60,826 bases of DNA from a filamentous cyanobacterium CCP2 (lineage in GTDB: Bacteria > Cyanobacteriota > Cyanobacteriia > Elainellales > Elainellaceae): NCBI GenBank assembly GCA_003003615.1, contig PVWD01000007.1:1-60826 (forward strand). Direction: 5' to 3'. A program made the translations under genes and the position numbers. Below are positions 43,080-59,700 of the stretch, one piece after another. Position 1 is the stretch's first letter. Every line of letters begins with the position of its first letter. Under the pieces are notes generated by a model. It was given only the letters and a program-made list of their open reading frames with translations, did no database searches and was not told where the DNA came from.

Positions 43080-43138
43080 TGTGAAGTGTCCATTAAAGAG
43101 CTATTTGTCGAATTTAAAGACTCAGTGACAATTTAAAA
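43080..43138 (+). mobile_element. Candidate left end of a Tn7-like (CAST V-K-like) transposon
   Basis: Starting at TGTGAAGTGTCC (43080) are three related motifs about 19 bp apart: GTGTCCATTAAAG (43087), TGTCGAATTTAAAG (43106) and GTGACAATTTAAA (43125). This resembles the TGT-terminus and multiple TGTCG/TGACA-containing TnsB-binding repeats at the left end of type V-K CRISPR-associated transposons. It is followed about 170 bp later by tnsB, the usual distance. No matching right end was found inside the window, so the boundary is a proposal. Confidence 0.5.
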
Positions 43139-43254
43139 CACTCACCTAGAGTGCCCACATAGTAAGAGTTTTAGGTTTTCCTGATGGGTTTTTATTCTTT
43201 TTATAGGCTTGAATAGTTATTTGCCTTTTTTCCTGGAACCCTTAAAAACGGTTT

Positions 43255-43302
43255 AAACTGATAATTGCCTTTTTTCGGTTATCCTCCGAAGGTTATCAGT
43301 TT
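43255..43302 (+). promoter_or_regulatory. Inverted repeat in the tnsB leader
   Basis: AAACTGATAA (43255-43264) and TTATCAGTTT (43293-43302) are perfect 10-bp arms ending 5 nt before the tnsB ATG, with an inner TTCGG...CCGAA stem. In RNA this would bury the ribosome-binding region; in DNA it could be an operator. TTGCCTTTTTTC also occurs twice (43221, 43265). Confidence 0.6.
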
Positions 43303-43307
43303 AGCTT

Positions 43308-43868
43308 ATGGAAGATCTCAAACCCATATCTGCTGCTCAGTTGTCCACCGATTCCAGTGGAGTAACAGCCTTTGTGGATGAAGATCAGCAGCCTGCTTAT
43401 AAAATTCTGATCGAGCTTGTCGAGGATCTGGATAAGCGAAGAGAGGTAATGCGGAAGATCGAGGCGATCGAAGATATTACTCAAGCCTCTGACGATCTCA
43501 AGCGGGAGAAGATTCAGCTATGGGCAGATCGACTGGAGAAGAACCCTAGAACGATCACGCGATGGCTGGAGAAAGTTGAGAAAGAAGGATTGGCTTCGAT
43601 CGCTAGAGCTACCCGCTCCGATGCAGGACAAATCAAGGGTAATAAACGATGGAAGCACTCTGTTCAGTATTGGACTGAGTTTATTCTCAAGACCTATAAC
43701 GATGGCATCAAAGCTAAGTTGGGTATAACCCCCAACCTTGTGAACAATCAGGTCAAGAGCCATGCTGAATTAGAACTAAGGTTAAAACAGGGCGAGTACC
43801 CTTCACATCCGTTTGTGTACAAAATTCTAGAACCCCTCATCGAGATAAAAGCAGCGAAAGGTGCGTAA
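43308..43868 (+). CDS. tnsB: TnsB N-terminal part (DNA-binding helix-turn-helix domains)
   Basis: 186 residues corresponding to the N-terminal DNA-binding half of a TnsB/MuA-like transposase. Residues 55-105 contain a helix-turn-helix (LWADRLEKNPRTITRWLEKVEKEGLASIARATRSD) as in V-K TnsB, and residues 110-180 match the second DNA-binding domain up to the linker (HPFVYKILEPLIEIKAAKG). The frame then stops at 43866, and the catalytic part resumes one frame over with an 8-nt overlap. Either the protein is made as two chains, or by +1 frameshifting at GCG-AAA-GGT, or the gene is broken by a 1-nt indel. Confidence 0.85.
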   Translation: MEDLKPISAAQLSTDSSGVTAFVDEDQQPAYKILIELVEDLDKRREVMRKIEAIEDITQASDDLKREKIQLWADRLEKNPRTITRWLEKVEKEGLASIARATRSDAGQIKGNKRWKHSVQYWTEFILKTYNDGIKAKLGITPNLVNNQVKSHAELELRLKQGEYPSHPFVYKILEPLIEIKAAKGA

Positions 43869-45252
43869 TCCAGGGCAGGGACCTGGAATCATTGTCAAAG
43901 TTACAAGCGGGAAGAAAGGTGGCAAATCGGCTGAGGAGGATATTGAGGTCATCCGCAGCAATCAGGTTTGGCAAATTGATCACACTCGGTTGGATAACTT
44001 ACTTGCTGATGAGAAGGGCGATCTTGCTTGCTCTGTCTGGATTACTGCGGTGATTGATACATGGTCAGGCTGCGTGATGGGGTATCACCTCAGCTTTGGC
44101 TCTGCGGGATCTCACGAGGTTGCTCTGGCGCTACGCCACGCTATTTTACCGAAGCATTATGACCCTGAGTTTCAACTTAAGGAAGAGTGGGAGGTATGTG
44201 GTCTTCCTGAGTACATTGTCACCGATCGCGCCAAAGAGTTTAAGTCAGCACACCTGAAGCACATTGCATCAAATTTAGGTATCAAGTTGCGACTTCGTCT
44301 CTATACAGAACAAGGTGGAATCGTAGAGCGGTTATTTTTGGAGCTGAAAACCGAATTTGCTGCATTGATACTTGGCTTTAAAGGGGGGAGCCTGAAAGAG
44401 CGACCAGAAAATGCTGAGAAGTATGCCTGTGTTGTATTTGAGGACTATGACCGTAAGTTAGTACAGCATTTCGTAGACCACCACAACAAACATCTCTATC
44501 CGAGGGCTGAAAATCAAACGCGCTTAATGAGATGGAAAGCAGGTCTATTAGGTGGTCAGCCTAAAAGGCCTGCAAGTGAGCGAGAACTTGACCTGTGTTT
44601 AATGAAAACGACAACGCGCAATGTTGAAGAGCGGGGATGCATTAATTTTGAGAAGTTGGTCTATACAGCGAGTTTAAGTCGGGAAGAGGATGGGCATTGG
44701 CGCTATGACAAGAGGGCGAACTTCCTTAAAGACTATGAAGGCAAGGAAGTTTTAATTCGATACAACCCAACAAACATTGTTTATGTTCTCGTCTACACGG
44801 TTGAGGAGAATGGTCAGCCATCTGAATTCTTAGGCACAATTAGGGCTAGAGATTTAGAGGAGGAGCGTTTATCTCTGAAAGAATGGAAGGATCGCAAGGC
44901 TCAGATTCGTAGGGAGGGTAAGGGGATTGATCAGTCGTCTATCTTAGCTCAACAACGGAATTTATATGTGTCTTCAGTTGAAACAGCTAAAACATTAAAG
45001 GGACGGCGCAAGAAGGAGAATAACCGAATCACGAAAAGGTCTGAACATTCGGATAGAGTAGTGCAATTATTTCCTCCCAATATTTCTTCCGCCGATACGC
45101 TCCCAGATGCTATACCGGATGGCGAGGCTGCCCCTTCAACCGAAGCACCCTCAGAGGATTTGCAATCCACACCGAAACCACCTAAAATTCAGGCTAAACC
45201 TGCTTTGTATGTTGTTTCCGATTGGGATGAGTTTGTAGAGGACAGGTGGTGA
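43861..45252 (+). CDS. tnsB: TnsB C-terminal part (DDE integrase core)
   Basis: 463 residues holding the RNase-H-fold catalytic core. The DDE triad is intact: Asp40 (VWQIDHTRLD), Asp122 (IVTDRAKEF) and Glu156 (GGIVERLFLELK). A beta-barrel and a Lys/Arg-rich region follow, ending in the short acidic-aromatic tail DWDEFVEDRW, which parallels the TnsC-contacting C-terminal hook of V-K TnsB (DYEQLREEYGF in ShCAST). The start would be GTG 43861, overlapping the upstream stop, with poor ribosome site. It cuts and joins transposon 3' ends. tnsC starts 11 nt later. Confidence 0.9.
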   Translation: MRNPGQGPGIIVKVTSGKKGGKSAEEDIEVIRSNQVWQIDHTRLDNLLADEKGDLACSVWITAVIDTWSGCVMGYHLSFGSAGSHEVALALRHAILPKHYDPEFQLKEEWEVCGLPEYIVTDRAKEFKSAHLKHIASNLGIKLRLRLYTEQGGIVERLFLELKTEFAALILGFKGGSLKERPENAEKYACVVFEDYDRKLVQHFVDHHNKHLYPRAENQTRLMRWKAGLLGGQPKRPASERELDLCLMKTTTRNVEERGCINFEKLVYTASLSREEDGHWRYDKRANFLKDYEGKEVLIRYNPTNIVYVLVYTVEENGQPSEFLGTIRARDLEEERLSLKEWKDRKAQIRREGKGIDQSSILAQQRNLYVSSVETAKTLKGRRKKENNRITKRSEHSDRVVQLFPPNISSADTLPDAIPDGEAAPSTEAPSEDLQSTPKPPKIQAKPALYVVSDWDEFVEDRW

Positions 45253-45263
45253 GATAACCCAAA

Positions 45264-46229
45264 ATGAGCCAGTCAAACTTAGCAGTTCAGCCACCCGAGG
45301 AGCAACCTCAAGTTTCCCAAGCATCATCTGGAGCGTCACAGCCTAACCAAGCTCCTTCCAATCCTGCGCGAAAGGTTGGGGCGCAAAAGACCCGATCGCC
45401 CGAACAACAAGCAGAAATTGAGCGGATTGGTAGGATTAATCCGTATGTGGGGGTGCAGCGAGATGAGGATTTGTTCACTTGCTTCAATCATTGGAGCGAC
45501 TTGAAAATTTGTGCTCGTGTCCTCACGATCGATCGCTTGGGTTTGTCGAAAGCGATCGACCACTACACCAGACAAACGAGCAAGCGTCGAGGGGACTTGT
45601 TGCAAGTGCCTGCCCCAGTTGCTGCTATTGAAATGGAGCAACATGGTAGTGCGACAAATTTGTTTCTCTTAATTCTGGAATTTCTCTGTAACCCCCTGGA
45701 CTGTGGCTCTTTACGCGATTTACGATCGCGAACTTGGGGGACGCTCAAGGTTTACGGAGTCAAACTTTTGATTGTTAATTACGCGGAATTGTTATCGTTT
45801 GCTGCACTGAATGAGCTGGTGCGGACTTCTGAGAAACTGGGGATTTCTATTGTTCTGGCAGGTTCGCCTTATCTCAACGATTTGCTTGATCCTAACGGCA
45901 ATCGCAAGAAGAGATACGTCAATGTGTACAACACGTTTCGCAAGTATCATCAGTTCAATCTGCTTTCTGTGTCGGACACGGCAACTATTATTCAAGAGTG
46001 GGAGAGAGTAGGATTACGTTGGGCAAACCCACTGAATTTAACCACCGATAGTGCGATCGTCAAACTCTTACACGAGCGGTCACAAGGGCAGCTTCGCCCT
46101 CTTTACGAAAACCTGCGAGAAATTGCAGTTTGGAAATTAGAACATCCTGGGGCGCAAATCAACCCACAAAATATTGACATTGCCCTGGGGAATCAATATC
46201 AGCCTATCTCTAAGCTTAGACAGTTCTAA
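45264..46229 (+). CDS. tnsC: TnsC-like AAA+ regulator with degenerate Walker motifs
   Basis: A 321-residue protein collinear with V-K TnsC from about residue 50 on, after a Gln/Pro/Ser-rich extension. The Walker A region, GESRTGKT in ShCAST TnsC, reads TIDRLGLS (residues 88-95), so the ATP-binding Lys is Leu. Walker B, LIIDEAD, reads LIVNYAE (residues 169-175), so both acidic residues are gone. The rest (GISIVLAGSPYLNDLL; VNVYNTFRKYHQFNLLS; EGYIGR-equivalent QGQLRPLYENLREIAVWKL) is well kept. TnsC filaments need ATP to mark targets and recruit TnsB, so this copy should be unable to bind or hydrolyse ATP normally. Confidence 0.85.
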   Translation: MSQSNLAVQPPEEQPQVSQASSGASQPNQAPSNPARKVGAQKTRSPEQQAEIERIGRINPYVGVQRDEDLFTCFNHWSDLKICARVLTIDRLGLSKAIDHYTRQTSKRRGDLLQVPAPVAAIEMEQHGSATNLFLLILEFLCNPLDCGSLRDLRSRTWGTLKVYGVKLLIVNYAELLSFAALNELVRTSEKLGISIVLAGSPYLNDLLDPNGNRKKRYVNVYNTFRKYHQFNLLSVSDTATIIQEWERVGLRWANPLNLTTDSAIVKLLHERSQGQLRPLYENLREIAVWKLEHPGAQINPQNIDIALGNQYQPISKLRQF

Positions 46230-46286: not shown

Positions 46287-46802
46287 ATGGAGAATCAGGA
46301 ATCACAGCGTTCAATCCTTTATCTGCAACCCTACGACGATGAGAGTATCAGTCACTATCTTGGGCGTTGGTTTCATCAGGAAGTAGTGAATAGTGATTCA
46401 TACAGCCTGGGAAGAAAATTGAGGCTGGGGAAGACGCTATGGAGATGGGAAAATTTCTACTTCAACCCACCTCCAACTCGTGAAGAATTGCAGAAAATTG
46501 ATGAGTTGATGAGCTTGGGAATAGAAAGACTACTTCTGATGTTTCCATCTCAACACGAGCCAATTAAGCCTAAACCCATTCGGATCTGTGCAGCTTGCTA
46601 CGTTGAAGCACCTTACCATCACATGAGTTGGCAATACCAATCTACGGAGGGGTGTGAACGCCATCGGCTTCGCCTGCTTTCCAGATGCCCAGATCCCAAA
46701 TGCAGCAGACCTTTTCCCATTCCTTCTGCCTGGGCAACACCGGGAAGGTGTAAATGTGGAATGCCGTACACAACAATGGCACGGAAACAAAAGCCCTATT
46801 GA
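46287..46802 (+). CDS. tniQ: TniQ-family protein, short V-K CAST type
   Basis: A 171-residue TniQ, close in length and sequence plan to ShCAST TniQ (167 residues): LYLQPYDDESISHYLGRW at the start, RWENFYFNPPPTREEL, then CAACY...CERH and a second Cys set (CPDPKC, CKC) forming two zinc sites. The second zinc site has altered spacing relative to ShCAST. TniQ caps the TnsC filament and links it to the targeting module (Cas12k and tracrRNA in V-K). It lies 57 nt after tnsC. The end of the gene is followed by about 130 bp of non-coding DNA. Confidence 0.9.
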   Translation: MENQESQRSILYLQPYDDESISHYLGRWFHQEVVNSDSYSLGRKLRLGKTLWRWENFYFNPPPTREELQKIDELMSLGIERLLLMFPSQHEPIKPKPIRICAACYVEAPYHHMSWQYQSTEGCERHRLRLLSRCPDPKCSRPFPIPSAWATPGRCKCGMPYTTMARKQKPY

Positions 46803-46933
46803 ACTTCTCACATTGCGGCACAATACTCAATGGGTCACAGGTCAATAGAAATTTCTATGTGAAGTTTCCGAAATTGGAAATGGGTCAATGTAGGCTAAAG
46901 GAGAATTGCGCTTACATTCAGTCAATAACGCCA

Positions 46934-47323
46934 ATGACTCACCCTCCTTCCCAATCGATCGGTCTTGCTGAACTGATTCAGCAGGTCAAGAAAGAATTGC
47001 TCTCTACAGTGCCCGGTCAGAGTTCTGATGCCCCAATTTTGTTTGTGGAGTCTGTAGAGTTAGAGCTACAGGTGACGGTGAGCCGAGAAGGCAGCGGCGG
47101 GGTGAAAATTGATGTGCTTGCAGTCGGGGGTGGAGAGTTAGGGGGCACGCTCAAACGGGAAAATGTCCACACGGTCAAAGTTAGCCTATCTCCTCTGTTT
47201 GATAAGGAGCGTCTCATGGAGTTTTACCAGACCCTCCATTCTGACAAAGTGCCTACCACTGTGAAGCAAAGCCTAGAGGCACTGCTGAAGGGTGAAGAAG
47301 GAAATCTGTCTAATCAGTTTTAA
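46934..47323 (+). CDS. Trypsin-co-occurring domain (Trypco2-like) protein
   Basis: A 129-residue protein with the pattern of the trypsin-co-occurring domain 2: IGLAELIQQVKKELLST, then FVESVELELQVTVSREGSGGVKIDVLAVGGGE and VHTVKVSLSPL. These domains are small adaptor or sensor modules found with trypsin-like, caspase-like and NTPase components in bacterial conflict systems. ATG 46934 begins the conserved helix; longer in-frame starts run into tniQ. The CHAT gene starts 23 nt after its stop, so it opens the cargo operon. Confidence 0.75.
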   Translation: MTHPPSQSIGLAELIQQVKKELLSTVPGQSSDAPILFVESVELELQVTVSREGSGGVKIDVLAVGGGELGGTLKRENVHTVKVSLSPLFDKERLMEFYQTLHSDKVPTTVKQSLEALLKGEEGNLSNQF

Positions 47324-47346
47324 CTGCGATCGATTGAGGGGACAGC

Positions 47347-50082
47347 ATGGAGCTATTGGAGTTGACGCTTTCTCCAGTGAATGACCAACGCTTCTTGGCG
47401 AATGCCTCCCGTGTCCCGGATGGGGTTGGGGATGCCACGACAGAATGTGATTTGCCCTTCTGGGTAGGGAAGCAGGACTGGAGAAGAACGATCATCAAAA
47501 TCCTGGAGAGTAGCCAGGGATTTCGTTCTGAGAATTTTCCAGAAATGGAGGAGCAAGATTGGCTGGAGCAGGAGGGTCTGCTGCTTCCATCTCGACAGCA
47601 TTTTGATTCAGCTTATCTACGGCGGATTGGGCAAGCTCTCTATCAATCCCTCTTTCCACCCGATAGTCCCCTCAAGCAAGTTTTACAGCATTCTCTCCGT
47701 CTTACTGAGCAACATAACACTGACCTCCATTTGCGATTGAAATTTGCAGCGGATTCTGGGAAACGATCGCGTCTGGCAGATTATCCCTGGGAGTTGCTGC
47801 ACGATGGGCAACGGTTCCTGCTTCACCATCGAGTTAGGCTCTCTCGCTATATTGCCCATGAAGCTTCGCCACCCAAACTATCTGCTCAAGAGCAAATTCG
47901 GGTCTTGTTAATTTCTGCCAGACCCCAAGGGCTAGCTCAATTGACGCAGGCGGAACAGCAGGCGATTCAAGTTGGGTTAGAACGGGCGCAGGATGCTGGG
48001 TTGGTACAACTGCAAATCCTGCCGACTCCTGCCCGTAGAACCCTAAATCGTTATTTGACGGACTGTACATCTGAGCAATTGCCTCAGGTGTTGCACTTTG
48101 ATGGGCATGGGGTGTTTGGCAGACGCTGTGGGAATCCAGGGTGTTTGACAATGCATTCAGGGATTAAGGTGGAGTCCTGTCGTGTCTGTGGGCAACGATT
48201 ACCAGAGCCGCAGGGGTATCTGGCATTTGAAACCGAGGAGGGCAAGCCAGATTGGCAAAGTGCCACCCAAGTTGCTGCTCTCTTGCAGCCTTACCCGATC
48301 GCCCTGGTAGTGCTGAGTGCTTGTCAGTCGGGGATGGCGGTTGCAGGGGATTCAGTCTTCAATGGTATGGCACAGAACTTGATTGACCAGCGAATTCCGG
48401 CAGTGGTGGCGATGCAGTATTCTGTGCGGGCAGATGCAGCTTGTGATTTTGCCGAACAGTTTTACCGAGTGCTGGGGAAGAAGGAGGCGTTGCTGAAAGC
48501 GTTGAACCAAGGCATCCGGGAGATGGATGTGGAGGGAAATCAATGGTATCGCCCGGTGATTTACTTGCGTTGGCAGGATAATGAGGGAGGAAATCTGTTT
48601 GAGAGTAGATTGCCTCAGGAATCCTTGAGTAATCCCAATACTCAACCACAGCCTGACACCGAACCTCTCTCTCCTGAACCGCCTAAGTTGAGTCGGTTGC
48701 AACAACTAGAGTTAGTACGATTTCAGGATGACCTGGCTCGATGTGAGCGGGACTATAAGACAGTTGCCGACCAGTTGAAGCTGGAAGGGGATGGTGTACG
48801 GCAAAACCAACTCAAGGATCAGTTGAAAGTGTTGGGGCAGCAAATTGAGCAAATTGAACAGGAGATCCAAATCCGCGAAAGAGATATCCAACAAAGCAGT
48901 GCCCGGTTGCGTTTAGAGGAGCTGAAACGGATTTTGGATATCCACCTCAATCTATTCCCAGAGGTACTACGGGCTTGCCAGCAGCTATTTGCTATCCGCA
49001 AGTATTCACCCGGTCAGACTCTCCAGAATGCCCAAGAACTGATCGCAGAATTACTAAGGATTCCGCCAGGTCGATCGCAACCGTACGATGCCATTGAGCA
49101 GTTTGTGGCTTGCTTAGTCTCCAGTTCTCAAAATACGGCTCTTCTCACCGCGCTTCAGGGATGGGTCGAGCAATATGTTCAAGAAGGCTGGCAAGAACTC
49201 CTGGAGCGGGTCGAAGACTATCAAAAACAGACGGCTCAGGAGGCTCAACCTGTTGTTTTAGTAGCCATTAGCCGAAGTGATGAAGCTTCAACCCAGGAGC
49301 AGGAGGGCAATCGCTATCAGGTCAAGGCTTGGCGGATTCAGGATAGGGATCAGTACAAGCAACATCGGCAGGGCTATAGCCCGATCGAGATTCCAGGTTC
49401 GACTGGAGAAGAAACCTACACACTGGATGAACTAATTACAACCACACCTGCTCTCCTGATTCGCTTCCTTAGTGAAGGCAGTAATGAGTTTACCAACGAT
49501 CCAGAAATCCACATTTTTCTACCCTTAGAGTTGATGAATCAGGATGTGGATTGCTGGTTGCTCAACGACGGTTACGGCATGCCAAAGCTCCTGGGGCACG
49601 AGTACAAGGTGGTATTACGCTGTGCTGAACGGTTGAGCCGCAGCTATCGACAGCGACCTCGATGGATAAAAAAATGGCAACAACACGAATCCTTCCTTGA
49701 GAAAACAGCCTTTGAGTTTTTCACAGCAGGCGATGATAGCGATCTAGATGAACTGTCCTACACCCTGGATGAAATAGAAGAAACGATCGTTGGGTTAAAA
49801 GTGATGCGAGCACCCTGCCAAGTTGAACCAGATGGACTGTTTGGCGTTTTGCTCCAATCTGGGCTACCCCTGGCAGTCTGGGGACGGTGTGATTTACGGG
49901 AACCGACCAACGAAGCTGAATTAGATCGGATACTACAAGCTTGCTGTTTGGAACAGCTACCCAGTACGGTAAAACAAGAACGTCGCCAATCTCGAAAAGT
50001 CAAAGACAAAGATTGTCATATTGGACATCACCTTTCGTTATTGTGGGATGACCCCCACCTCGTTCCCCCCAAATTTGCTTAA
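47347..50082 (+). CDS. CHAT caspase-like protease fused to VMAP C-terminal domain
   Basis: A 911-residue protein. Residues 100-410 are a CHAT protease: His254 (LHFDGHG) and Cys326 (VLSACQSG) form the catalytic dyad. Between them is a zinc-ribbon-like insert (Cys261, Cys266, Cys278, Cys281). A heptad-rich coiled coil spans about residues 455-530, a helical module follows (530-620), and residues 640-911 match the VMAP C-terminal domain (ALLIRFLSEG...SGLPLAVWGRCDL...HLSLLWDDPHLVPP). In the vWA-MoxR-associated systems described by Kaur and colleagues, VMAP proteins link an effector to the MoxR/vWA pair. MoxR follows after 9 nt. Confidence 0.88.
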   Translation: MELLELTLSPVNDQRFLANASRVPDGVGDATTECDLPFWVGKQDWRRTIIKILESSQGFRSENFPEMEEQDWLEQEGLLLPSRQHFDSAYLRRIGQALYQSLFPPDSPLKQVLQHSLRLTEQHNTDLHLRLKFAADSGKRSRLADYPWELLHDGQRFLLHHRVRLSRYIAHEASPPKLSAQEQIRVLLISARPQGLAQLTQAEQQAIQVGLERAQDAGLVQLQILPTPARRTLNRYLTDCTSEQLPQVLHFDGHGVFGRRCGNPGCLTMHSGIKVESCRVCGQRLPEPQGYLAFETEEGKPDWQSATQVAALLQPYPIALVVLSACQSGMAVAGDSVFNGMAQNLIDQRIPAVVAMQYSVRADAACDFAEQFYRVLGKKEALLKALNQGIREMDVEGNQWYRPVIYLRWQDNEGGNLFESRLPQESLSNPNTQPQPDTEPLSPEPPKLSRLQQLELVRFQDDLARCERDYKTVADQLKLEGDGVRQNQLKDQLKVLGQQIEQIEQEIQIRERDIQQSSARLRLEELKRILDIHLNLFPEVLRACQQLFAIRKYSPGQTLQNAQELIAELLRIPPGRSQPYDAIEQFVACLVSSSQNTALLTALQGWVEQYVQEGWQELLERVEDYQKQTAQEAQPVVLVAISRSDEASTQEQEGNRYQVKAWRIQDRDQYKQHRQGYSPIEIPGSTGEETYTLDELITTTPALLIRFLSEGSNEFTNDPEIHIFLPLELMNQDVDCWLLNDGYGMPKLLGHEYKVVLRCAERLSRSYRQRPRWIKKWQQHESFLEKTAFEFFTAGDDSDLDELSYTLDEIEETIVGLKVMRAPCQVEPDGLFGVLLQSGLPLAVWGRCDLREPTNEAELDRILQACCLEQLPSTVKQERRQSRKVKDKDCHIGHHLSLLWDDPHLVPPKFA

Positions 50083-50091
50083 CCTGCCCCT

Positions 50092-51156
50092 ATGAGCGAC
50101 CCAAACCAAGACTGGAAGATTTTTCGCGGTGATCATCGAGACCCTCACGATGGCATCGATCGCCTACCGAAGGCACCCAGTTGGCGACCATTTGGGACAG
50201 ATATTAGCCCCGGTGTGAGTCGGCGAAAGCGACGGGGAGAAACGTTTCAGGTACGTCCTGAAGAAGTGGAGATGGTGAATGCAGCCCTGTACTTGCGCCG
50301 ACCGCTACTGATTACGGGCAAACCGGGGACAGGTAAATCCTCTTTAGCCTATGCAGTGGCGCGAGAGCTTAATCTGGGTGAAGTGCTCTACTGGCCCATT
50401 ACAACCCGAACCACCCTCAAGGATGGGCTTTACAGCTACGATGCCATCGGACGATTGCAGGAAGTCAAGCAATCGGAGGCAAAGGGTGAACAGGTGGATG
50501 ACCCTCAGAAAATAGCCAACTACATTACCCTGGGACCCCTCGGTACAGCCCTGCTGCCCTCCAGTCGCCCCCGGATTCTCATCATCGACGAGATCGACAA
50601 AAGCGATATCGATTTGCCCAATGATCTGCTGACGATTTTTGAAGAAGGACGATTTGAAATTCCCGAACTTGCCCGCCTTGAGCCGGATGAAACCGAATCA
50701 GAAAAGCAGATTACAGTACGGGTTCGCACGGCATATACGGATGACGAAGAAATCACGAAAGCCGATAGAAAAGTGGTGATCCAGGGTGGGCGGATTACCT
50801 GTCAGGAGTTTCCCTTGGTGCTGTTGACCAGCAATGGTGAACGAGACTTTCCCCCGGCATTCCTGCGACGTTGCCTGCGACTGACGATGCGAGAACCCGA
50901 TCGCTCAGAATTGGAACGCATTATCCAGGCTCATTTGACAGATTGTGATGTAGCGGCAGAGGAAATTAGTCAGCTAATTGGCACATTCTTGGAGCGGCGC
51001 GATAAGAAGAAACAACAGTTGGCGACCGATCAACTGCTGAATGCCATTTTTATGGTGACTCGTGAGCGGAATTTTGTAGGCAATGAGAAGAAGAATTTAC
51101 AGGAGCGGCTGATAGCTGCATTGGATAGCTCTATGGAAGAACCACGGCGAAAATGA
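50092..51156 (+). CDS. MoxR-type AAA+ ATPase
   Basis: A 354-residue AAA+ ATPase: Walker A GKPGTGKSS (about residues 76-84), Walker B ILIIDEIDKSD and the sensor-1/arginine region LLTSNGERDFPPAFLRRC. It is of the kind found in VMAP ternary systems, where ATP-driven remodelling is thought to set the switch between the sensor and the CHAT effector. Its stop overlaps the next gene's ATG (ATGA at 51153-51156), so the two are translationally coupled. Confidence 0.92.
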   Translation: MSDPNQDWKIFRGDHRDPHDGIDRLPKAPSWRPFGTDISPGVSRRKRRGETFQVRPEEVEMVNAALYLRRPLLITGKPGTGKSSLAYAVARELNLGEVLYWPITTRTTLKDGLYSYDAIGRLQEVKQSEAKGEQVDDPQKIANYITLGPLGTALLPSSRPRILIIDEIDKSDIDLPNDLLTIFEEGRFEIPELARLEPDETESEKQITVRVRTAYTDDEEITKADRKVVIQGGRITCQEFPLVLLTSNGERDFPPAFLRRCLRLTMREPDRSELERIIQAHLTDCDVAAEEISQLIGTFLERRDKKKQQLATDQLLNAIFMVTRERNFVGNEKKNLQERLIAALDSSMEEPRRK

Positions 51157-54059
51157 TCAACCGCCTGATCACAGTTTTACAGCAAGCGGGCTTAATTCTC
51201 AGTGATGAGGAGCTTGCTTCGTTCAGTGATGCGGAGTCGCTTCTCAGCGAGGAAGACCTTGCTGATGCTATCTGGTTAGCACTCCAGATGGGCACAGAAG
51301 ATGATCCAGCCGTAGATGAAGAGGAGCAAGAAGCCCAACTCGATCGCCTATCATCAACCGTCACCGTGGAAACTATTGAGGCAGATCCTATCCTCGACCC
51401 TGTGCTTCCGAATATCCCTGCCTATCTCCCTGAACCGAACAAGGTAGAAACGACCAGTTCACCAACGGTTGAATTACCAGAACAGGGATTGCCGATTCAA
51501 GTCAGGGCAGCCCCCTCCCTACAAGATGCTCGATCGATCGCCCGTTCCTTGCGTCCATTGCGGCGTAAAGCCCCCTCCCGCACTCAATCTGTGTTAGATG
51601 AAATAGCAACTGTTAACCGTATTGCGGCACAAGATGTCTGGATGCCTGTGCTAAAACCGGCTCCCGAACGTTGGCTGGATCTGGAACTGGTGATTGAATC
51701 ATCACAGTTCAGCTTTATCTGGCAGTCTACTCTGGATGAATTTCAGCAGATTTTGGAGCGGCAGGGGGCATTTCGGGATGTTCGCACCTGGTGCGTGCAG
51801 GGGGTGGAGGAAGGACAATTACATCTGGTTCCTAAACAGCAAACCTTCACCCAACAAACTCAGTTTCGTAGCCCCAAGGAACTAATTGATGCCTCTGGTC
51901 GGCGGTTGGTGCTATATGTGAGCGATTGTCGATCGCCCGTGTGGCGACAGGGAAAGATCCATGATTGGCTAAAACTGTGGAGCCAGCATCAACCGACAGC
52001 GATCGTGCAGCTTTTACCCGAACGTCTGTGGGAACAAAGTGAATTGGATGTTGGGGTAGGAACTCAGGTTAGTTCTCTGATACCGGGTGTTCCCAACCGT
52101 AAGCTAATGGTTAAGGATGGGAAAGTTCATCTGAATACTGACTCAGATTCATCCCTTATTCTCCCGATCGTGACCCTAACTGCCCGTTCTTTGAGACAAC
52201 TAGCATTGGTTGTCGCAGCCATTGGCAACCAGCGTGCTCCTGCCCGGTGGTTCGATCTAGACTGGGTGACAGATCCAGACCGAGACCCTGCACCTTCTGT
52301 CATCCAGCCTCAGACGGCAGAGGAGCGGGTTGATCTATTTTTGGCAACTGCCTCCCCTACGGCTCAACGGTTAGCTCGGCTGATAGCAGCGGTGCCCGTC
52401 AGTTTGCCGGTAATCCATCTGCTTCAGGAACGGCTACTTCAAGACTCTAACCCTGTTCATGTTGCCGAAGTTTATTCCAGTAGTTTGTTGCAGCCAGCCA
52501 AATCTTCCACAGCGGAATCTGTACAGTACGACTTTTATCCAGGGGTGCGGCAACTGTTGAATGAGTCCACATCTCAGGACGAGACAATCGATGTGTTGCA
52601 GGAATTATCTCAGGAAATTGCAGTCACTCTGGGATTACCTCCAATCCGCAGCTTTCTGGCGTTACTGTCGCCTCAGTCGGATTGGACTCCAGAAATGAGA
52701 GAGGCAATTTTACCCTTTGCTCAGGTAGCAACTGAGGTGTTACATAACCTGGGAGGGGAATTTGCAGATTTGGCGCAGAGGGTTGAGCGAGAGGCGGCTG
52801 GTTACACAGACTGGATAGAACCCCTGGAAACGGAAGGAGATTCAGGATTTCCTGAGTTGAATGTCCTTGAATTCACAACTGCTCAACTGGCAGATCCTGC
52901 TGATGCCCCGCAATTTCCTCCTTTGCAGGTGCAAGAGGTTGAAGTTGTCACCATTGTTTTTGAGGCTGAATCTGAGGAGATTGAACCTGAAGGTCTAGAA
53001 CGATTTGAGTTTGAGGTGGCGACCATTGAGCGTAGAACCGATACTCAGCAATCTGGCTTCCTGCAAAACATTCGTAATTTGTTTTCAAGCTCAGAACAGC
53101 GCAGTGAGTGGGTAATTCGCAAGCAACGGAGACAGGCTTATCAGTGGGTTGAGACATTAGGTGATCCAGTGCAGCAACGGGCACAAGCTACTCAGCAAAA
53201 TGTCGAGCGATCGAACACTTGGGGAGAAATGGTGGCTCCGTTTGAGGCGGTTGCTATTTCAGCAGGTACTTTACTTGAGATGGTTGCTATTCCAGCGGGT
53301 CGCTTCACAATGGGTTCCCCCGAGGATGAGGTCGATCGCTTCTCTTCAGAAAGCCCGCAACATGAAGTTAGTGTCCCCGCTTTTTTTATGGGCAAATATC
53401 CCATCACACAAGCCCAGTGGCAATTTGTAGCTGAGTTGCCGCAAGTCAACCGAGAACTTAATCCAGATCCATCCAACTTCAAAGGAGACAACCGACCTGT
53501 AGAGAATGTGTCCTGGTACGATGCAGTGGAATTTTGCGATCGGCTCTCTGCTCATACTGGTCGTTCCTACCGTTTACCGACTGAAGCTGAATGGGAATAC
53601 GCTTGTCGGGCATCGACTATTTTTAGAACTGGTGCTTCGAGGGCAGGAGATGTTGTAGGTGATGGAGTGAATACTCCTTTCCATTTTGGAGAAACTATTA
53701 CTACTGACCTGTCGAATTATAACGGTACCTACACCTATAACAATGGTCCTAAGGGTGAATATCGGCAGAGAACAACAGATGTTGGTAGTTTCCCGGCTAA
53801 TGCCTTTGGATTGTGTGATATGCATGGCAATGTGTGGGAGTGGTGTGAAGATCATTGGCATGAAAATTATGAGGGGGCACCGTCCAATGGAAGTGCTTGG
53901 GTAAACGAGGATCAGGGCGCAAACCGTATAGTACGCGGCGGCTCCTGGGACTATGATCCGAGGAATTGCCGGTCTGCTTCTCGCTCCTATGACACGCCCG
54001 ACAACCGTGGCGACTACTTCGGTTTTCGCGTGGTTTGTTCTACTCCAACGACTCTGTGA
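51153..54059 (+). CDS. SAV_2336-like protein fused to FGE-sulfatase/C-type-lectin domain
   Basis: A 968-residue fusion. After an acidic, low-complexity region, residues 140-470 match the SAV_2336 N-terminal family (RRLVLYVSDCRSPVWRQGKIHDWL; IVQLLPERLW), which fills the vWA-like slot in this system. Residues 705-968 are a formylglycine-generating-enzyme-like fold (IPAGRFTMGSPEDE; YRLPTEAEWEYACRA; GLCDMHGNVWEWCEDHWHENY; GGSW...GFRVV). The first active-site Cys of true FGE is replaced by Tyr, so enzymatic use is unlikely. The tail looks like a hypervariable ligand-binding site. It is coupled to moxR by a 4-nt overlap. Confidence 0.85.
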   Translation: MINRLITVLQQAGLILSDEELASFSDAESLLSEEDLADAIWLALQMGTEDDPAVDEEEQEAQLDRLSSTVTVETIEADPILDPVLPNIPAYLPEPNKVETTSSPTVELPEQGLPIQVRAAPSLQDARSIARSLRPLRRKAPSRTQSVLDEIATVNRIAAQDVWMPVLKPAPERWLDLELVIESSQFSFIWQSTLDEFQQILERQGAFRDVRTWCVQGVEEGQLHLVPKQQTFTQQTQFRSPKELIDASGRRLVLYVSDCRSPVWRQGKIHDWLKLWSQHQPTAIVQLLPERLWEQSELDVGVGTQVSSLIPGVPNRKLMVKDGKVHLNTDSDSSLILPIVTLTARSLRQLALVVAAIGNQRAPARWFDLDWVTDPDRDPAPSVIQPQTAEERVDLFLATASPTAQRLARLIAAVPVSLPVIHLLQERLLQDSNPVHVAEVYSSSLLQPAKSSTAESVQYDFYPGVRQLLNESTSQDETIDVLQELSQEIAVTLGLPPIRSFLALLSPQSDWTPEMREAILPFAQVATEVLHNLGGEFADLAQRVEREAAGYTDWIEPLETEGDSGFPELNVLEFTTAQLADPADAPQFPPLQVQEVEVVTIVFEAESEEIEPEGLERFEFEVATIERRTDTQQSGFLQNIRNLFSSSEQRSEWVIRKQRRQAYQWVETLGDPVQQRAQATQQNVERSNTWGEMVAPFEAVAISAGTLLEMVAIPAGRFTMGSPEDEVDRFSSESPQHEVSVPAFFMGKYPITQAQWQFVAELPQVNRELNPDPSNFKGDNRPVENVSWYDAVEFCDRLSAHTGRSYRLPTEAEWEYACRASTIFRTGASRAGDVVGDGVNTPFHFGETITTDLSNYNGTYTYNNGPKGEYRQRTTDVGSFPANAFGLCDMHGNVWEWCEDHWHENYEGAPSNGSAWVNEDQGANRIVRGGSWDYDPRNCRSASRSYDTPDNRGDYFGFRVVCSTPTTL
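53936..54037 (+). other. Putative DGR variable region 1
   Basis: Codons after GGC-GGC-TCC-TGG vary against the two other FGE genes (54920-55023, 56217-56321) in clusters, while the frame around them (CCC/CCG, TGC-CGG-TCT-GC, GGT-TTT-CG) is kept. Variable codons are nearly all NNC or NNT (GAC TAT GAT AAT TCT TCC TAT GAC), as expected from mutation of AAC/AAT codons in a template repeat. Confidence 0.55.
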
Positions 54060-54117
54060 CTCTTTTCACACTTACTTTTTAGCTCTCTGCCCTGTTTTCT
54101 CTACACTTTTTTGTACG

Positions 54118-54162
54118 GAGCGCGTTGGCAAAGCCTCTCCGTTAGGAGAATCTAAATTTTTA
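54118..54162 (+). repeat. Direct repeat after FGE genes, copy 1
   Basis: GAGCGCGTTGGCAAAGCC, then TCTCC-gtta-GGAGAATCTAAATTTTT. A second copy at 56403-56446 differs by a few bases. Each follows the stop of an FGE gene by a similar distance, with further similarity (TTTTC/CTTTA-rich) between stop and repeat, so the gene end and its flank appear duplicated. CTCC/GGAG forms a short hairpin. Confidence 0.75.
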
Positions 54163-54183
54163 GCCTTACATCGATTCAAACCT

Positions 54184-55515
54184 ATGGCGACTACCCAGGA
54201 TCAGCAGCCTAAATTCACATTACAGCGTCGTCGTCAGTCTGTTCAGTTTTTTGTTGAACAGCTAACCGACGACATTGGCATCGAGATGATGCTGATTCCA
54301 GCAGGCACATTTATGATGGGTTCACCCGAAGATGAGATCGATCGCTCCTCCAGTGAAAGCCCACAACATGAAGTCAGTGTCCCTACCTTTTTCATGGGCA
54401 AATATCCGATCACTCAGGCACAGTGGTCGTTTGTAGCAGAGTTACCGCAAGTCAACCGAGAGCTAAAACCAAATCCTTCTAGATTTAAAGGAGACAAACG
54501 TCCTGTAGAGCTAGTGTCCTGGTATGAGGCGGTGGAATTTTGCGATCGGCTCTCTGCTCACACGGGACGAGAATATCGCCTACCGAGCGAAGCGGAATGG
54601 GAATACGCCTGCCGAGCCGGAACGACAACTCCCTTCCATTTTGGCGAAACAATCACAACTGATTTAGCCAATTACGATGGCACTGATGCTCCTAATGGAG
54701 AATGGTCAAGTGGTTCCTATGGACGCGGACCTAAAGGGGAATATCGCGAAGAAACGACCCTTGTAGGACATTTTGGGATTGCCAATGCCTTTGGACTATG
54801 TGATATGCACGGAAACGTAATGGAGTGGTGTTTAGATCATTGGCACGACAATTATGAAGAGGCACCGACTGATAGCAGTGCTTGGTTAACTGAGGATGAA
54901 AGTGCAGGACGAGTGCTACGCGGCGGTTCCTGGACATTCACTCCCAACAATTGTCGTTCTGCCTATCGCGGCATCAATCCGCCTGACAACCACGACTCCC
55001 GATTTGGTTTTCGAGTGATATGTCGATCTTGGACAAAGAATCAGCCAACAACAGATGATTTCATTACTGAAAAAGGTATTAATTACACCACACTCCGAGA
55101 TTTATTATTAACAGACCAATGGAGGAAAGCAGATGAAGAAACCTGGAAAATTATTTTGCAAGTAACAGGACAGCAAGAAAGAGGGTATTTATACAGTAGT
55201 GACGTTGGCAGTATTCCTAGTGCTGATCTCTGCACGATCGACCGCCTATGGGTGAAATATAGTCAAGGTAAATTTGGTTTTAGTGTTCAGAAACAGATCT
55301 GGTATGAAGTTAGTCAGGATTGGGAAAGATTTACCGAACGAGTAGGATGGAGAGAAGCAAATGCTGGTTTCAAGAACTACGATGCATTGACTTTCAGCAT
55401 AAATGCTCCTGCGGGACACTTTCCTTTCCAATTTGGAACTCCTGATTACTGTTGGACTTGGCGAGTGGGCAGGGGAAATACGATGGACTATCTGCTCTTA
55501 AGACAAGATCTGTAG
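54184..55515 (+). CDS. FGE-sulfatase/C-type-lectin domain fused to GUN4
   Basis: A 443-residue protein. Residues 20-285 are an FGE-like lectin fold (LIPAGTFMMGSPEDEID; YRLPSEAEWEYACRAG; GLCDMHGNVMEWCLDHWHDNY; GGSWTF...GFRVICRS), with Phe at the first FGE active-site Cys. Residues 296-443 are a GUN4 domain (LRDLLLTDQWRKADEETWKIILQVTG; CTIDRLWVKYSQGKFGFSVQKQIWYEV; GHFPFQFG), the tetrapyrrole-binding module known from chlorophyll synthesis regulation. It is a cyanobacteria-specific combination here in a conflict operon. ATG 54184 is used; the longer frame runs into the previous gene. Confidence 0.88.
   Translation: MATTQDQQPKFTLQRRRQSVQFFVEQLTDDIGIEMMLIPAGTFMMGSPEDEIDRSSSESPQHEVSVPTFFMGKYPITQAQWSFVAELPQVNRELKPNPSRFKGDKRPVELVSWYEAVEFCDRLSAHTGREYRLPSEAEWEYACRAGTTTPFHFGETITTDLANYDGTDAPNGEWSSGSYGRGPKGEYREETTLVGHFGIANAFGLCDMHGNVMEWCLDHWHDNYEEAPTDSSAWLTEDESAGRVLRGGSWTFTPNNCRSAYRGINPPDNHDSRFGFRVICRSWTKNQPTTDDFITEKGINYTTLRDLLLTDQWRKADEETWKIILQVTGQQERGYLYSSDVGSIPSADLCTIDRLWVKYSQGKFGFSVQKQIWYEVSQDWERFTERVGWREANAGFKNYDALTFSINAPAGHFPFQFGTPDYCWTWRVGRGNTMDYLLLRQDL
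54920..55023 (+). other. Putative DGR variable region 2
   Basis: Equivalent segment in the FGE-GUN4 gene (GGC-GGT-TCC-TGG ... GGT-TTT-CGA). Variable codons are TTC ACT AAC AAT TAT GGC ATC AAT GAC AAC CAC GAC TCC plus ACA and CGA, still largely NNC/NNT. Unlike the other two it is not at the gene's 3' end, so active retrohoming here is less certain. Confidence 0.45.
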
Positions 55516-55529
55516 GTTTGAGGAACCAA

Positions 55530-56342
55530 ATGGCAGAACTGGTGATCCGTCGAGAGCGTAAGCAAGCCCGCTACTTCGTTGAGAAGCTGGGGGACACAGC
55601 CGGTTTGGACATGATTCTAGTCCCTGGTGGAACCTTCGTGATGGGTTCTCCCGATGACGAACCAGAACGCACTGATGTTGAAAGCCCACAGCACGAAGTA
55701 AATGTTCCCACCTTCTTCATGGGACGCTATCCGGTTACTCAAGCTCAATGGCGATTTGTAGCAGAGCTGCCCGAAGTCAACCGAGAACTAAATCTAGACC
55801 CTTCCCACTTCAAAGGAGACAAACGACCTGTAGAGCGGGTGACCTGGTACGATGCGGTGGAATTTTGCGATCGGCTCTCCGTCTACACCAAACGAGAATA
55901 TCACTTACCCACTGAAGCCGAGTGGGAATATGCCTGTCGGGCTGGAATCACCACTCCATTTCATTTTGGGGAAACAATTTCTTCTGAGTTGGTAAACTAT
56001 GCTGCTTCTGAAACCTATAACAATGGATCGAAGGGAGAGTATCGAAAAGAAACGACTCCTGTAGACCATTTCGGTATTGCTAATGCCTTTGGGTTATGCG
56101 ACATGCACGGGAATGTGTGGGAGTGGTGTTTAGACCATTGGCATGACAATTATGAGGGTGCGCCGATCGATGGGAGTGCTTGGTTAACTGACAATGAGGA
56201 TGCAAGTCGAGTAATACGCGGCGGTTCCTGGTACGACTTTCCCTGGGCTTGTCGGTCTGCCTATCGCTACTCCGGTTCGCCCGTCTCCCAGCACTACTTT
56301 ATTGGTTTTCGCGTTGTATGTGTTGCTCCGAGGACTCTGTAA
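55530..56342 (+). CDS. FGE-sulfatase/C-type-lectin domain protein
   Basis: A 270-residue stand-alone FGE-like domain, closely similar to the domains of the two preceding genes (LVPGGTFVMGSPDDEPER; YHLPTEAEWEYACRAG; GLCDMHGNVWEWCLDHWHDNY). It ends in GGSW...CRSAYR...GFRVVC. The first FGE Cys position is Asp, so oxidation of a client cysteine is not expected. ATG 55530 follows the GUN4 gene stop by 14 nt with GAGG between. It is probably a secreted-independent, cytosolic binding protein acting in the same system (inferred). Confidence 0.87.
   Translation: MAELVIRRERKQARYFVEKLGDTAGLDMILVPGGTFVMGSPDDEPERTDVESPQHEVNVPTFFMGRYPVTQAQWRFVAELPEVNRELNLDPSHFKGDKRPVERVTWYDAVEFCDRLSVYTKREYHLPTEAEWEYACRAGITTPFHFGETISSELVNYAASETYNNGSKGEYRKETTPVDHFGIANAFGLCDMHGNVWEWCLDHWHDNYEGAPIDGSAWLTDNEDASRVIRGGSWYDFPWACRSAYRYSGSPVSQHYFIGFRVVCVAPRTL
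56217..56321 (+). other. Putative DGR variable region 3
   Basis: 3' end of the last FGE gene. Variable codons include TAC GAC TTT GCT TAT TAC TCC GGT GTC TCC CAC TAC TTT ATT, 14 of about 16 being NNC/NNT, the pattern produced from AAC/AAT template codons. The flank (GCGTTGTATGTGTTG and a T/C-rich stretch after the stop) may hold the IMH element. Confidence 0.55.
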
Positions 56343-56796: not shown

Positions 56797-59700
56797 TTAC
56801 TTCACCAACCCAGCCAATCGCTCCAGCTTTTCTCGCCAATCCTCATCATGCCGCAGAACCACGATCGCATAATTGGCGTTATACCGCAGGTTATCTCGCT
56901 CCAGTCGATCGCGCTGCTGCTGGTCAGGATGATCATGGATAGAGCCATCGCAGAAGACGGCGACTTTAGCTGATTTGTAGAGGAAATCAGGTTTGGCATT
57001 GGCTTCCGGAATGAGTTCTTGGGCGGTGTCGGGTAGTTTCAAGCCATGCTGATACATCTCATCCAGAACCATCCGTTCAAATTCAGAGTTAGGGTCAGTC
57101 TGCGATCGTAATTGCTGATAATGGGCTTCCCGCGTTCCTCCTTGCATCTGGCGATCGATCCTGCTGGTTGTGAGTTGGTCTAACCAGCCATGAATCAAGT
57201 GACGATTCAGCAGGGGATGGTCAAACTGATTGCCATAGGACAGCAAGCATTCGTAGCAGGCTTGAGTACAGCTTTCCTTCTCTTCAACAAAGTGGCAAAT
57301 ATCCAGGGCAGCCTGGGCGATCGATTGGAAGGTATCTGGCTTTTCGAGCAACTGTGATAGCACTCCGGCTCCCCCTTCTGCGGCTTCCCAAAACAACAAG
57401 TGTTTACCCTGTCCCAATCGTTCTGAACAGAGTTCATTGTCTTCCAACTTATAAACCGCCTGAATCGCCCGTTCAAGGGCATACTGCAAGGTTGCCAAAA
57501 AAGCTTCTGTGTTCTCAGTTGGAACATTCACTGGCTCCATCACCAGAATATTGCAAGTATCTTTGACCAGCAAATGAACCTGACTGTGGTTCGTCGGTGC
57601 AGCGATCGTTGGTTCCTCACTGGTTTCGCCCCAGGTTCCGGTTTTGGTATCCAGCTTAAAACCAATTTCGTTATAGTTGCGCTTCAACCCTCGGTTGAGC
57701 CGCCAAACCTTTGCCGTGTCTCCGTAGGACAGTTTCAACAGCGTTGTCCCATCTGCGGCAGACACCGTCGCTACATCTTGCCGACCCGATTCATATCGGA
57801 AATGGGTCGTCAGGTTATAACCATACTTTAACCGTTCTTCTTCATCGCAGGTAATTCGTTCGCGGCGGCGGGTAATCATGGTGCCCATTTCTAAGACTCG
57901 ATTGAGTCGTGGCAGATTTCTTTGATCGCTAGAGGTAATCCGCGCACCACAGTTTTCGCAGGTATCTCTCGTTGCACTATCACCTTCGTGAAAATATCCA
58001 CATTGCGAGCATAATCCAACTCGTTGATATTCTCGTTCAATGCCCCCAGCCGGAATCCGAGTTTTGGCAATCTGAAACTTGTTCCCTTCGTAATAAACGA
58101 TATTACCAGGTGCAAACTCGCGCAGTGCCACAATACGAGAACGGGAAATGAACTCCCCTTCATCCCCTGCGGGAACGTATGCCCGAACTGGCAATCGGGG
58201 GAAGTTATAGCCCGGCAGGAAGCCTTCCGAAGCAAAGTAGCGGTAGGGGTAAAACTCAAATTCACTTTGGCTCTTACCGGACGTGACCTGCCCAATTAGC
58301 AAGTCAATTTGTCTGCGGGCTTCTCGTTCCTGGTTATCGGCGTTCTGGCGTTCCTCCTGCGTAGCGATTCCCCTGGTGGCACGATCGATGATCTGACGAG
58401 CATGGTTGAGTTGAGCCACGGCATCGCTGTAAAGCTCTCGCCATCGTTCACAGGCGCGATCGAACTCAAGGGGAGCATCTTCAATGCGTTGCTGTAACCA
58501 ATCCAGCGAGTACCAGGACATCCGGTTCAAGTCTGCCTGACAAAACGTATCAGCCAAAATAGACTGCGCTGCTTGCACACAGCGATTCAAGCGATCGGGT
58601 GGGAGATTGAGCTGGAGCTGCACACTTTCTTTGAGTGGGTAGCCTGCTTGCTCCAAGTCCAGCAATTGGCTCATGGAATCTCCCAGGTATAACCCGGTAT
58701 GCGCTAACCAGATGGAGTAGATGTGAGACTTGATTAAATCCTGGTTGCCCAGTTCCAACTTCGGGGGCACCACGACCCCTGCCACCATTTGGCTTTGACG
58801 ACGGAAGAAATACTGATCGTGCCCGCTGCCGACTGAGGCATAGGTAATGACAAGCGCACCTTGCCCACTGCGTCCTGCCCGCCCACTGCGTTGAGCATAA
58901 TTAGCAGGACTGGGGGGTACGTTTCGCAAATGCACCACGTTGAGATCCGAAATGTCGATCCCCAGTTCCATAGTGGGTGAGCAAAACAGAGCCGCTAATT
59001 CTCCCTTACGAAACAGATCTTCCCGTTCCTGCCGTTTGATCGTTTTGACCTGTCCCGTATGCTCTCGTCCTTCCATGCTGTGGGTTTGCTGGGCACTCCG
59101 CTCATAAAAGTCCTGGAAGAACAAATTGACGGAGGTGGGGGTTTCTTCGGCTCCCTCAAGGCGGCGGGCAGTTAGGACATCAGGGGCGATCGTGTTTGTT
59201 TTTTGGGAACGCCACTGAAGGGAATCAATCCGTAATTGGACTTCAGTTCCGTCTTTAATCAGATAACCGCTGTCACACAGGACGTTGATAAGTGCGGTGA
59301 TCAGCAGGGCATATTCTGATTCTGGAATAGATTCAACTAGCCAACTCCAGGCGCGAGGCGAGCGCAAAAACTGCCCAATCTTACTGCGGGAGGTGAGGCG
59401 GAGTTTGGAGCGGCTACGTTTACGCCCCGCCTGCTCACCGACGCTGGTGCTGGCCCATTTTGCTTCGTGCAGTCGCTCGTAGGCATCAAATGTCCAGGGA
59501 TCTTTGAGTGCCTGATTCACTTCCTTCTTCAGTTGCTCAATCCGATCGGGTTGCAGCAATCGAGCATCAATGACCAGTTCTCGCCGCAACAGATCCAGCA
59601 GTGTTTTTGCAGCCACTAATCGTTCGGATGGTGTGGCACGTAGTAAGAGGGGATGGGGATATTTCTGCCAGGGTTCATTTGCCTGACACACCTCATCCAG

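Follow-up and report, generated by a model that had tools for sequence, protein, structure and literature searches.

In type V-K CASTs, the binding and hydrolysis of ATP by TnsC are thought to be central to the choice of the target and to the trimming of the TnsC filament. In the TnsC of the Scytonema hofmannii CAST (ShTnsC), R189 and Q185 form a pair that "recognizes the nucleotide-bound state" (PMC9876797). According to a passage in a review (Annu Rev Biochem 2024; PMC11406308), ShCAST is severely compromised by Walker B mutations; thus, the canonical V-K mechanism requires ATP hydrolysis. One sentence of that passage mentions that some V-K CAST TnsCs are "without a typical Walker A motif", and these are very probably the same phenomenon as the group of proteins described here. 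The gene that led us to this group is located in the window, i.e., the whole analysed stretch of 60,826 nucleotides (contig PVWD01000007.1 of the filamentous cyanobacterium CCP2).

The ORF is open throughout. Its Pfam matches are AAA_22 and TniB, its best solved relative is ShTnsC (phmmer E 5e-16), and ShTnsC is also the nearest fold (VIA Z 26.0, 255 residues, 3.1 A) to its AlphaFold model (mean pLDDT 84.5; AAA+ core mostly above 90). Sequence and fold thus both place it, by descent, in the TnsC/TniB family. As the first-pass annotation had stated, the alignment to ShTnsC showed that TIDRLGLS stands at Walker A and NY at Walker B within an intact 321-residue frame (Table 1). The annotation had also regarded the rest of the AAA+ core, including the arginine-finger region, as conserved. 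This is not correct for the arginine finger: R189 is replaced in the window, and by Ser, Thr, Asn or Ala across the relatives described below. The protein is also without Q185 and the DNA contact K103 of ShTnsC. Consequently, none of the three features used here to recognize an active AAA+ ATPase (a GxxxxGK[ST] Walker A, a DE Walker B and an R189-type Arg) is present.

Table 1 Positions of the tnsC gene, its altered motifs and the surrounding element in the window
Feature	Position	Strand	Basis
5-bp flank TGAAG immediately before the left end (candidate target-site duplication)	43082..43086	+	
Transposon left end TGTCCATTAAAGAG..., TnsB-site-like repeats	43087..43300	+	Position and sequence type as in relatives' ends
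tnsB, 5' part (HTH)	43308..43868	+	82% identical to uninterrupted P. tenue TnsB
tnsB, 3' part (rve, Mu-transposase C), +1 frame	43861..45252	+	Pfam, homologue comparison
tnsC without nucleotide-binding motifs, 321 aa	45264..46229	+	ORF, Pfam, phmmer, tree, fold
Former Walker A, TIDRLGLS = T88-S95 (ShTnsC K66 = Leu94)	45525..45548	+	Alignment to ShTnsC
Asn172-Tyr173 at the former Walker B acidic pair (ShTnsC D144-E145)	45777..45782	+	Alignment to ShTnsC
Thr224 at ShTnsC R189 (nucleotide-state residue)	45933..45935	+	Alignment to ShTnsC
tniQ, short V-K-like type, 171 aa	46287..46802	+	Pfam TniQ 7.5e-07
Genes after tniQ: Trypco2 protein, CHAT-EAD9-VMAP protein, MoxR-type AAA (NTPase conflict system)	46754..51156	+	

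Searches of cyanobacterial genomes and plasmids provided 21 distinct full-length TnsCs of this Walker-less kind, and a maximum-likelihood tree was built without the Walker A, Walker B and R189 columns. Three features were found. One is that a single branch separates all 21 sequences from the rest of the tree (support 98/84, one change). Another is the extent of the losses: K66, E145 and R189 are each kept in none of the 21 members and in all of the 24 canonical TnsCs, while the Walker B Asp is missing in 18 of the 21, the first Asp being kept only by the early-branching L009-L011. The early-branching members, which have this one Walker B Asp, also retain a Gly in the Walker A loop. Because the absence is clade-wide and the first Asp survives only there, the loss is ancestral and graded. 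The annotation had named, as the outcome contrary to its view, homologues that all carry GKT and DE; what was found is a clade in which every member is without these motifs. The last feature is a set of residues absent from canonical TnsC (ShTnsC numbering): 38 Arg, 39 Asp, 82 Gly and 88 Pro occur in 21 of 21 members, 191 Leu in 20 and 245 Tyr in 19. These residues suggest that the sequences came under new constraints, and those at positions 38, 39, 82, 88 and 245 are candidates for a substitute interface.

The window's own genome contains a second Walker-less tnsC on contig C58 (40% identity; motifs GANFADLR and IIGYAE) and two further TnsC homologues with GK[ST], one of which (contig C135) has DN, not DE, at Walker B. 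The combination of a retained GK[S] with DN was found in the TnsCs of L004, L040, L041 and L044. These fall outside the Walker-less clade, so that loss of the catalytic Glu there seems to be a separate event.

The dN/dS ratio (Nei-Gojobori) was 0.09-0.29 in close pairs of Walker-less tnsC, and mostly 0.09-0.25 among the Nostocales copies; it was 0.24 for T. variabilis versus N. favosum, and 0.18, with dS saturated, for the window versus P. tenue. In the former Walker A segment of nine Nostocales copies, synonymous changes are many and amino-acid changes almost none. The low ratios and the preserved replacement motif fit a functional protein, not a decaying one, and decay of tnsC is ruled out by the ratios together with the conservation throughout the clade. 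The comparison of homologues proposed in the annotation thus bears out its claim of a specific rather than random loss: the 21 sequences share the losses at these positions, and their dN/dS is low. Apart from this, the window and P. tenue (L005) differ unevenly over 43861-46229: tnsB is 88% identical (dN 0.064), whereas tnsC is 62% identical (dN 0.312), with its first ~36 aa nearly identical. Recombination inside the operon or rapid evolution of tnsC is a possible reading of these values.

The element in the window has the layout of a V-K CAST, namely, a tnsB-tnsC-tniQ operon with a short TniQ and no tnsA before tnsB, and only about 220 bp lie between the left end and tnsB. Relatives' ends comparable to this left end have matched 5-bp duplications. 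A 1-nt frameshift at 43840-43870 (run ATAAAAGC) divides tnsB into two overlapping frames; it is private to the window, the homologues of P. tenue, Nodosilinea, T. variabilis and Nostoc each being in one frame, and may be a true mutation or an assembly error. Programmed frameshifting was set aside, since every homologue has an uninterrupted tnsB. The frameshift may have left the window copy immobile on its own. The genes listed after tniQ in Table 1 are presumably the cargo. Over 46754-56342, they are accompanied by three proteins with repeated formylglycine-enzyme-like C-terminal domains, the whole set resembling an NTPase conflict (defence) system, and a 1302-aa helicase similar to Druantia DruE (PADLOC E 2.7e-52; 56797-60705, minus strand) reaches the contig end.

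Neither Cas12k nor a right end of this element was found on the contig, which ends at 60826; the far side may be unassembled. An exact and 1-mismatch search of the window's own genome for the right end with TGAAG returned nothing end-like. Two other contigs of the genome were rejected as the far side: C454, which encodes Cas12k, has different terminal repeats, and C148, which has a broken Cas12k and an adjacent tRNA-Thr, has no TGTCCATTAA-type end and no TGAAG flank. C454 itself holds another V-K CAST end (L133, 10460-14553) with an 823-aa Cas12k, a CRISPR array, a likely self-guide to tRNA-Cys and the unusual terminal repeat CGCCACGAATTTGAAA.

In several cases, the Walker-less tnsC shares its element with Cas12k (NCBIfam NF038191). 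The C58 element (L049) carries tnsB, the Walker-less tnsC, tniQ, cargo, a Cas12k of 797 aa (NF038191 E 2.5e-199) and CRISPR repeats. Its self-spacer has a 14-nt match, with a GTA PAM, to the adjacent tRNA-Ala(CGC), and the 5-bp duplication TTACT stands at both ends; it thus shows the Cas12k, the self-targeting spacer, the tRNA attachment site and the 5-bp duplication of a V-K CAST. Self-spacers were also found to tRNA-Gly in G104 (17 nt) and to tRNA-Pro in G266 (18 nt; duplication ACAAT). In G266, a neighbouring CAST has the same tRNA-Pro match, and the element lies within the right-end region of this neighbour; the nesting indicates that the element was inserted later. In P. priestleyi BC1401, tnsB, tnsC, tniQ and cas12k are all open; the duplication GAAGT, beside a tRNA-Val, joins two contigs, and the self-spacer matches 13 nt. 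Nodosilinea PCC 7104 has the duplication AATTA with an adjacent tRNA-Ala and a stop that interrupts Cas12k, Dendronalium has the duplication TATGG and a 17-nt self-spacer, and Scytonema NIES-4073 also has TATGG. From the pattern of self-spacers and tRNAs, the insertions of these CAST relatives would have been guided by RNA. Some tRNAs have more than one left end, in tandem or nested (L061, at 6673 and 7832; L045/L046), which suggests weak target immunity.

The clade also includes the TnsC of a much smaller, IS-like element. In T. variabilis ATCC 29413, this element is 4005 bp long, has inverted ends TGT..ACA, and encodes a TnsB of 614 aa, a Walker-less TnsC of 302 aa and a hypothetical protein of ~180 aa; TniQ and Cas12k are absent from it. 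The copies on plasmids A and C are 100% identical and are flanked by the duplications TCAAC and CCAGG, and in strain 0441 a further copy, flanked by AATGC, lies on the chromosome. Some contigs of Nostoc favosum and N. foliaceum consist of exactly this element, and three insertions in N. foliaceum are enclosed by matched pairs (GTGGT, AAAAC and ACAAC). G570 carries three copies, two identical and the third differing by 2 nt, and a matched duplication (ACTTG) was found at only one of the three. Non-autonomous copies of ~0.5 kb with the element's ends exist; those of T. variabilis (~487 bp; W01 273685-274171 and W02 210177-210663, one with the duplication CGGGT) are MITEs that TnsB probably mobilises in trans. 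The ~180-aa protein, conserved at the place of tniQ (L069 4984-5526; L066 3100-3720), has no Pfam match and could be a regulator or a targeting factor. RefSeq names the plasmid-borne relatives "ATP-binding protein", a label that is probably wrong.

The repurposed regulator that the annotation had proposed is not supported. In almost every relative, the gene occupies the usual place of tnsC, with tnsB before it and tniQ after it, and several elements with target-site duplications have the Walker-less TnsC as their sole TnsC. We consider instead, with a probability of roughly two in three, that the ORF encodes a target adaptor of a V-K-CAST-type Tn7-like element and belongs to an old lineage of single origin that no longer binds nucleotide and still works, independently of ATP. 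The direct evidence for this reading consists of the family and fold, the clade-wide losses, the purifying selection, the gene order and the mobility footprints of the relatives. We infer the absence of ATP binding from the missing motifs, and conservation and gene order argue for a role of TnsC in the transposition of these elements; its step in the reaction seems able to run without ATP. The severe effect of Walker B mutations on ShCAST, the single matched duplication among the three G570 copies and the canonical TnsC found in several carrier genomes count against this reading.

How such a step might proceed is a more specific question, and we regard the chances as evenly balanced that the AAA+ regulator of this pseudo-ATPase clade of single origin functions free of any nucleotide, protein contacts having replaced ATP-gated filament assembly both in the CASTs and in the autonomous 4-kb elements. 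The Walker-less TnsC would assemble on the target DNA without ATP; its oligomer would be placed or held by contacts with TniQ-Cas12k in the CASTs, and by TnsB itself in the 4-kb elements without TniQ, and it would recruit TnsB through protein contacts. Under such placement, the ATP-driven filament growth and the TnsB-triggered disassembly of the ShTnsC type would be lost or superseded.

The main rival reading holds that the chemistry of transposition can do without TnsC: TnsB alone would move the element, and the Walker-less protein would be kept for another role, such as target immunity or the damping or biasing of TnsB. The 4-kb elements lend it some weight, because they are mobile without TniQ and Cas12k and their TnsB need not depend on targeting proteins, as does the loss of the DNA contact K103 in the clade. 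However, the CAST insertions beside tRNAs with their own self-targeting guides need a bridge from TniQ to TnsB, and purifying selection is strong in all subclades; we therefore judge this rival improbable. As to the bridge, none besides TnsC is known to us. Use of a non-canonical pocket for nucleotide is very unlikely: the AAA+ core is predicted to be well folded, and the early-branching members keep the loop Gly and one Walker B Asp, but all 21 members have lost the Walker A Lys, the Walker B Glu and R189, and 18 of them the Walker B Asp as well.

The canonical TnsC of other elements might also act in trans, the Walker-less protein being a passenger or mixed into its filaments. A canonical TnsC does co-occur with these elements in several genomes, including the window's own, N. 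foliaceum and T. variabilis 0441. Nevertheless, none was detected in P. priestleyi BC1401, Nodosilinea PCC 7104, Spirirestis, Rhizonema, C. membranacea or G570 (for the last, at E<=1e-4), and the Walker-less gene is maintained by selection. Given these six genomes, help in trans is not a general answer, though it is possible elsewhere, and as an overall explanation it is highly unlikely. That the window gene is merely a private decayed allele, as its frameshifted tnsB and missing right end might suggest, is scarcely credible in view of the intact ORF and the identical losses in 20 other distinct sequences.

If the favoured reading of a working, ATP-independent TnsC lineage is correct, nature has provided TnsCs that do without ATP in elements that have clearly moved, so that the role of ATP can be tested directly; for engineering, the lineage may yield simpler ATP-independent CASTs or two-gene minimal transposases. 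Our searches of open-access papers in PMC returned none that describes this clade, the selection acting on it or the minimal elements without CRISPR. The passage in PMC11406308 shows neither sequences nor a phylogeny, tests no selection, and covers neither mobility nor the CRISPR-free minimal elements; the single origin, the selection, the mobility and the minimal elements appear to be new. ShCAST TnsC resembles the window TnsC in fold, size class and the tnsB-tnsC-tniQ order, whereas the latter has a long disordered N-terminus and has lost the Walker A Lys, the Walker B Asp-Glu, R189, Q185 and K103. Tn5053 TniB, IS21 IstB and phage MuB are, like the window TnsC, AAA+ partners of an rve-type transposase. 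The MuB fold matches the window model with Z 22, but the matched MuB filament structures are nucleotide-bound (ATP, ADP), while the window TnsC is without the site.
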